Of a stretch of 14,580 nucleotides of DNA, positions 5,163 through 6,284 are shown piece after piece. A program made the translations under genes and the position numbers. A model generated the notes under the pieces. It was not told the DNA's origin. It made no database searches and saw only the letters and a list, made by a program, of their open reading frames with translations. Source of the DNA: Candidatus Altarchaeota archaeon (lineage in GTDB: Archaea > SpSt-1190); the NCBI GenBank assembly GCA_030590165.1, contig JAUUZA010000015.1, positions 1 to 14,580 of the forward strand, given 5' to 3'. The first letter of the stretch is position 1, and every line of letters starts with the position of its first letter.

Positions 5163-6032
5163 TTAAGAAGATGAAGTTTCAATTTCAATCCCCCACTTTT
5201 CTGCATACTTTTTTGCAGATTCACTTATATCATTACAAAATACTTTTAGTTTTGTAGGCAAACCAAGAATTATTTGTTTTTCACGTAAAGTTTTAAGATG
5301 ACTTAAACTGATGTATTTTTTATTTAAGGCAAGATAAAATAATTTATTTACAGGATCCCAAGCTGCTAATTCAAATTTAAGTTTAATTTTTTCTGGACCG
5401 TCGCGCAGGACCCAAGTTTCAATAGCAAAAGGTTTCCAAATTTTAAAGTGTGTTGGGAAGGCTTCATGAGATTCTGACTTTTTTGAGTTAACAATTTTGA
5501 AACCGGGGCTTACTGCACAGGGAGCCCCTATTTTTTGAACTTCAATTAGTCCATAATATTCTAAGAGATGGACTGCTCGTTTATTTGAGGGATTTATTCT
5601 AACGGGGCCTTTTTTGACATTTTTTAGGGTTTCCCATTGGTGACCTCCTCCCTTCTTTACAAGTTCTCTTACCTTAGTTTGGATTTGACCCTCGTGTCCC
5701 TTTGAATAAAAAATTCTGCCAAATCGCTTCCCCCCTGCAATTACAGGTTTGTGTGTGTGTAATAAACTTTTTTTTATTTTGGAAACAATTAATCTAAGAT
5801 TGTTTAAAATATTTGTTTTAGCTGTTTTCTCCCCAATTTTTCGACCAAAACTTAATTTATAACTTTTTATGAGACTGCCTGTCATTTTTTCTAAATTTGG
5901 TGAAAAGAAAGCTAAAGATTCTTCCCAAAGTTCTGTTTCAGACAGAAGCCCCTTATCTTCAAGAATAAACTTAAGATGCGTAAAAAGACTTTTTTCAAGT
6001 CCTTCCGTTGCTATATGAATTTTAGGTCGCAC
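5163..6032 (-). CDS. Unrecognised protein with winged-helix-like middle and possible degenerate nuclease-fold C-terminus
   Basis: I do not recognise this 289-residue protein as a named family. The N-terminal half is basic and helical. Residues about 140-183 (GPVRINPSNKRAVHLLEYYGLIEVQKIG) look like a small winged-helix element. The C-terminus has a strand-strand-helix-strand-helix order: KLKFELAAWDPVNKLFYLALNKK (217-239), a helix LSHLKTLREKQIILG, then KLKVFCND and SAKKYAEKWGIEIE (272-285). This resembles PD-(D/E)XK nuclease-like proteins, where one expects ELDVVA...LYLVECK. If so, the catalytic Asp is Ala (ELAAW) and E-x-K is replaced by A-L-N, so it would be a non-catalytic binding fold. This is inference from pattern only. 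The start is GTG 6032, with a TATA element centred about 23 bases upstream that also faces the small RNA. Confidence 0.6.
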   Translation of the reverse strand: MRPKIHIATEGLEKSLFTHLKFILEDKGLLSETELWEESLAFFSPNLEKMTGSLIKSYKLSFGRKIGEKTAKTNILNNLRLIVSKIKKSLLHTHKPVIAGGKRFGRIFYSKGHEGQIQTKVRELVKKGGGHQWETLKNVKKGPVRINPSNKRAVHLLEYYGLIEVQKIGAPCAVSPGFKIVNSKKSESHEAFPTHFKIWKPFAIETWVLRDGPEKIKLKFELAAWDPVNKLFYLALNKKYISLSHLKTLREKQIILGLPTKLKVFCNDISESAKKYAEKWGIEIETSSS

Positions 6033-6049
6033 AACATTAGTAATACTTG

Positions 6050-6060
6050 TATATAATTAA
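6050..6060. promoter_or_regulatory. Bidirectional TATA element between the 6032 gene and the box C/D RNA
   Basis: TATATAATTAA is centred at 6055, 23 bases from the GTG at 6032 on the minus strand and 23 bases from the first C-box base (6078) on the plus strand. It fits as the TATA box for either or both. Confidence 0.6.
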
Positions 6061-6077: not shown

Positions 6078-6146
6078 GTGATGATGACGCTCTACTGATT
6101 CCCAATCCTAGATTGGGGGTATGATGATGATTATGAGTTCTGATTA
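6078..6146 (+). ncRNA. Probable archaeal box C/D guide sRNA targeting elongator tRNA-Met (Cm34)
   Basis: The boxes occur in canonical order: C GTGATGA (6078-6084), D' CTGA (6095-6098), C' ATGATGA (6121-6127) and D CTGA (6140-6143). The D guide is 12 bases (6128-6139, TGATTATGAGTT), and its complement contains ACUCAUAAUC, the anticodon loop of a CAU tRNA. The fifth base upstream of D is G6135, which pairs with C34, the wobble base. Cm34 of elongator tRNA-Met is a known C/D-guided modification in Archaea. The 10-base D' guide (6085-6094) is complementary to UAGAGCGUCA, a plausible D-arm plus anticodon-stem sequence. A 7-bp hairpin lies between D' and C', where a short spacer is usual. A TATA element is centred 23 bases before the C box and a T-rich stretch follows D. 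The main weakness is that no clear terminal stem is visible. The exact ends are estimated. Confidence 0.75.
6101..6117 (+). repeat. 7-bp hairpin between D' and C' boxes
   Basis: CCCAATC and GATTGGG pair perfectly around a CTA loop, and two further T-G wobble pairs (6099-6100 with 6118-6119) can extend the stem to the D' and C' boxes. This would close the C'/D' motif as a stem-bearing kink-turn rather than the short kink-loop usual in archaeal guides. It is not followed by a T run on either strand, so it is unlikely to be a terminator. Confidence 0.7.
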
Positions 6147-6284
6147 TTTTTCGTCTTCTCTATCTTCGTCCAGTTTATTTGTTACGTCCAGAAGCATAAG
6201 CTTAATTTCCTCAAATTCTTTTTTCAGTTTTTGAATTTCTTCTGAAATATTTTCAATAGCATCAACCATATCTTTTTCTATCAT
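6144..6284 (-). CDS. 46-residue coiled-coil microprotein
   Basis: ATG 6284 opens 46 codons, ending with TAA directly adjacent to box D of the small RNA. The peptide (MIEKDMVDAIENISEEIQKL, then KKEFEEIKLMLLDVTNKL, ending DEDREDEK) is highly charged with hydrophobic residues at heptad-like spacing (I10, I13, I17, L20, F24, I27, L31), so it should form a single amphipathic helix or coiled-coil oligomer. A TTTATA element (minus strand, 6306-6311) is centred about 24 bases upstream of the ATG, the same leaderless spacing as neighbouring genes. That, plus the helix-like composition, argues for a real gene. No family is recognised; a small subunit or adaptor role is possible but unproven. Confidence 0.6.
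   Translation of the reverse strand: MIEKDMVDAIENISEEIQKLKKEFEEIKLMLLDVTNKLDEDREDEK

Follow-up and report, generated by a model that had tools for sequence, protein, structure and literature searches.

A 14,580-nt stretch of the genome of a Candidatus Altarchaeota archaeon (hereafter the window) carries what is very probably (about 0.93) an unannotated, stand-alone box C/D sRNA gene directing methylation of C34 in elongator tRNA-Met. This reading is supported by the boxes themselves, by complementarity between guide and target within the same genome, by the conservation of the RNA and of its position, by the way in which the guide tracks its target, and by the presence of fibrillarin and Nop5 genes.

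The features of the locus are collected in Table 1. All four boxes, which the initial annotation had described as present in order, can be read directly in the sequence as GTGATGA-TGACGCTCTA-CTGA-(hairpin)-ATGATGA-TGATTATGAGTT-CTGA. They match the RUGAUGA and CUGA consensus of archaeal box C/D sRNAs, and the two guides, D' of 10 nt and D of 12 nt, fall in the range of 10-12 nt that is used to define such RNAs. The register given for box C' was chosen because the relatives show a single C' box followed by a 12-nt guide. The TATA element that had been reported upstream is also there, and four of six family genomes (the window's own, G005, G006 and G002) have a TATA-like element 27-29 bases upstream of box C; in G004 and G001 the element is weaker or hard to make out. 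The sRNA sits between two minus-strand reading frames; searches of Pfam and NCBIfam with the protein of the larger frame gave no match. The smaller, 46-aa frame ends directly at box D, and it and the sRNA gene are nearly back to back. ARAGORN found no tRNA genes in the window, and an Rfam scan of the window returned no family at cut-off, the lone C/D-box match being to sR3 with an E of 0.6. The C/D k-turn of archaeal box C/D sRNAs is usually closed by a terminal stem. Here the flanks of boxes C and D hardly pair (around 3 bp in G004), so that such a stem is absent or very short, which counts against the guide-RNA reading.

Table 1. Features of the sRNA locus and its neighbours, in window coordinates
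Feature	Position	Strand	Remarks
Whole element	6078-6143	+	boxes C, D', C', D in order, read directly in sequence
TATA-like promoter element, TATATAATTA	6050-6059	+	28 bases before box C
Box C, GTGATGA	6078-6084	+	identical box in five relatives
D' guide, TGACGCTCTA, 10 nt	6085-6094	+	probably orphan; 7-base match only, not kept in relatives
Box D', CTGA	6095-6098	+	sequence and relatives
9-bp hairpin in D'-C' spacer	6099-6119	+	-9.8 kcal/mol; equally stable shuffles 0.2%
Box C', ATGATGA	6121-6127	+	pattern search and relatives
D guide, TGATTATGAGTT, 12 nt	6128-6139	+	11 bases (6129-6139) paired to positions 30-40 of elongator tRNA-Met
Box D, CTGA	6140-6143	+	sequence and relatives
T-rich stretch, possible 3' end or terminator	6144-6151	+	immediately 3' of box D; not kept in every relative
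Reading frame, 289-aa protein	5163-6032	-	conserved in six family genomes
46-aa coiled-coil-like frame	6144-6284	-	similar frames in G005 and G006

The genome to which the window belongs (G000; 724 kb, 64 contigs, 87.6% complete) gave 44 tRNA matches, two of them with a CAU anticodon. The first is the initiator, with an AGCGGGG acceptor and a GGG/CCC anticodon stem; the second, which begins GGCGAGGTAGCTCAGTAGGTAGAGCGCTGGACTCATAATCCAGAGGCC and lies at G000:C18:520-592, is elongator tRNA-Met. Its anticodon arm, CTGGA-CTCATAA-TCCAG, contains GACUCAUAAUC, the target predicted in the initial annotation, and this sequence spans the anticodon. The gene is intronless, and it is the mature anticodon arm that the guide pairs with. 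The predicted duplex of 11 bp consists of ten Watson-Crick pairs plus one G.U, the latter at tRNA position 30, next to box D. The fifth base before box D, G6135, lies opposite C34, just as the fifth-base rule had been taken to require. The claim that a 12-base D guide is complementary to the tRNA held in part; the guide is indeed 12 nt long, but 11 target bases are paired, T6128 not pairing with C41. The predicted energy of the duplex is -13.5 kcal/mol with elongator tRNA-Met versus -8.8 kcal/mol with the initiator, and -9.5 kcal/mol or weaker with five other anticodon arms of the same genome.

The RNA was searched for with the pattern C'-N(1-8)-TATGAGNN-CTGA, made up of box C', the guide core and box D. 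It was found in six of the seven family genomes (G000, G001, G002, G004, G005 and G006), the relatives being Candidatus Altiarchaeota in the named collection. The seventh, G003, which is 72% complete, gave no match, and this counts against the guide-RNA reading. In all six the sRNA adjoins the same divergent gene, the counterpart of that at 5163-6032; its protein shows 44-60% identity to the one encoded in the window. A pairing of 11-12 bases links each of the six guides to the tRNA-Met of the genome it comes from. A U at base 41 of the tRNA is faced by G or A in the guide, and with C at that base (G000 and G002) the pair is lost. More widely, the pattern is present in 26 of 101 archaeal genomes, and the guide GATTATGAG occurs also in Nitrososphaera-type and other archaea. 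The tRNA-Met of two distant archaea, G030 and G053, differs in sequence and contains an intron; the guides of these genomes, GCTCATACGGAT and GCTCATAGGGT, match their tRNA-Met over 11-12 bases, covering the anticodon and the bases that follow it. Since the guides match their own tRNA-Met in the family genomes and in G030 and G053 alike, the guide follows its target, and the fact that it does so in each genome tested supports long-term selection on the modification.

A wider reading would have one orthologous guide RNA kept across archaeal phyla, with the guide changing as the tRNA-Met intron was gained or lost; in some lineages it would pair across exon and intron of the pre-tRNA, and in this Altiarchaeota family it would invade the anticodon stem of the mature tRNA. 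Cm34 would have been kept in the family even though tRNA-Ile(UAU) took the place of tRNA-Ile2(CAU) and TiaS. We put this forward tentatively, the odds on it being somewhat unfavourable. The order of units around the tRNA-Met guide was also seen to vary; at L058-L062 (G011, G033, G093, G073 and G053) the tRNA-Met guide unit (C'-guide-D) precedes a unit with box C and the guide TGATGGGCGAT, whereas at L053-L055 it comes after the box C unit. In many of the Nitrososphaera-type loci L093-L108 the guide RNA for tRNA-Met is closed by a strong terminal stem, GGATGC/GCATCC, and has the D' guide GAAGAGCCGGCTGA in common.

The best match of the D' guide is of 7 bases, with UAGAGCG, a heptamer that many tRNAs carry in their D arm. 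Nothing convincing or conserved was found for it among the tRNAs of its own genome or the rRNAs of relatives (there are no rRNA genes in the genome bin itself), and the D' guides of five relatives differ and have no convincing targets in the available sequences. It could be proposed that both guides of the RNA act on a single tRNA, the D guide directing Cm34 and the D' guide directing Gm24 in the D arm of that tRNA-Met, as the heptamer CGCTCTA adjoining D' is complementary to UAGAGCG at positions 20-26 of the genome's own elongator tRNA-Met. This is improbable; seven or more further tRNAs of the genome also contain UAGAGCG, the match is only 7 bp long, and those of the differing D' guides of the five relatives that were scanned against their own tRNAs have no such D-arm match. 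The D' guide is probably an orphan with no conserved target, and is regarded as such because tRNA-directed archaeal sRNAs are described as using one guide for tRNA, the other guide being without such a target (PMC7994747).

The D'-C' spacer is 4, 4, 14, 20 and 79 nt long in the relatives, the usual 4 nt being found in G001 and G004, and spacers of more than 10 nt fold as hairpins of varying strength. In G006 (L067, 79 nt before position 1501) the D'-C' spacer of the orthologous sRNA contains a 79-nt insertion that includes a strong hairpin, CAAACTTTTT...AAAAAGTTTG. Because the orthologues in G001 and G004 keep a 4-nt spacer, the D'-C' hairpin is, on this comparison, variation inside one predicted orthologous set. 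A short k-loop at C'/D' is usual, though not strictly defining, for archaeal box C/D sRNAs, and in some members the hairpin-forming spacers would convert it to a closed stem.

The identity of the target must also be considered, as the CUCAUAA loop is found in the Ile2 tRNAs of other archaea too, and the true target might then be tRNA-Ile2(CAU) instead of tRNA-Met. This proposal is largely refuted and deserves very little credence. The family yielded no tRNA-Ile2(CAU) and no more than two CAU tRNAs in any one genome, and TiaS is absent from all seven family genomes in a search where four archaeal control genomes were positive. The target tRNA has G2-C71 and C3-G70 pairs, as in the initiator; Ile2 tRNAs of other archaea begin GGGCC or GGGAC (an isoleucine-type acceptor). 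Further, an intron-containing tRNA-Ile(UAU) with an isoleucine-type acceptor is present in three family genomes, G000 (L021, G000:C30:1573-1690), G002 (L179) and G005 (L206); the anticodons were read by hand, ARAGORN labelling these genes Trp or Ser. The Altiarchaeota family seems, from these genes, to decode AUA by tRNA-Ile(UAU), of which Korarchaeum and Nanoarchaeum are reported as rare cases (PMC6000648), and AUA is common in the window's reading frames (117 of 4349 codons). Because of the initiator-like acceptor pairs, the lack of tRNA-Ile2(CAU) and TiaS in the family and the presence of tRNA-Ile(UAU), the predicted target of the guide is tRNA-Met and not tRNA-Ile2(CAU).

The search pattern is expected about 0.003 times in a genome of 724 kb (by arithmetic from 16 fixed bases and 8 gap lengths); the genome matches it at this locus only, in two overlapping registers, and the reversed pattern, as a control, was present in none of the 101 archaeal genomes. 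A chance arrangement of repeated TGATGA words within AT-rich intergenic DNA, which the two copies of TGATGATGA and the shortness of both guides might suggest, is barely credible in the face of that empty control and of position, boxes and guide conserved in six genomes despite an identity of only 44-60% in the neighbouring protein.

As a box C/D guide for tRNA-Met, the stand-alone gene would be transcribed from its own promoter on the plus strand. L7Ae would be expected to bind the transcript at the C/D and C'/D' motifs, and Nop5 and fibrillarin, whose genes are adjacent in this genome and are both present in 7/7 family genomes, would be recruited to it. With the D guide paired to the anticodon stem-loop of elongator tRNA-Met, C34 would lie opposite the fifth base from box D and be methylated at its 2'-OH by fibrillarin. 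The modification Cm34 is held to stop C34 reading AUA (PMC7668247); it may be expected here to restrict the CAU anticodon to AUG, away from AUA.

No earlier report of such a guide in this lineage was found in the open-access literature. The guide class is already known in archaea; what is new is this lineage, with a matching target and the protein machinery. RNA-guided wobble methylation of tRNA-Met would thus be extended to a little-studied uncultured lineage, and guides could allow tRNA modification to be read out computationally in archaea not amenable to culture. Guided Cm34 in archaeal elongator tRNA-Met had been called established in the initial annotation, and rightly so, as box C/D guidance by sR-tMet is given for Haloferax (Joardar et al. 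2011, as listed in PMC4033218). From what is given there, the Haloferax volcanii sR-tMet is likewise a stand-alone box C/D RNA for Cm34 of elongator tRNA-Met; set side by side by description, its target is reported as pre-tRNA-Met, whereas here the tRNA-Met is intronless and the mature arm is paired. A Pyrococcus sRNA that targets the first anticodon position of tRNA-Met (PMC7994747), likened by description and not by sequence, has the same predicted site and mechanism in another lineage. In human, Cm34 of elongator tRNA-Met(CAT) is guided by the box C/D RNAs SNORD97 and SCARNA97 (PMC6601510); likened by function, the modification site is the same, but these are eukaryotic RNPs with two cooperating guides. 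Finally, the box C/D intron of pre-tRNA-Trp also guides Cm34 of a tRNA (PMC7994747, PMC4033218), but that guide sits in the tRNA's own intron, whereas the putative tRNA-Met guide here is a separate gene.
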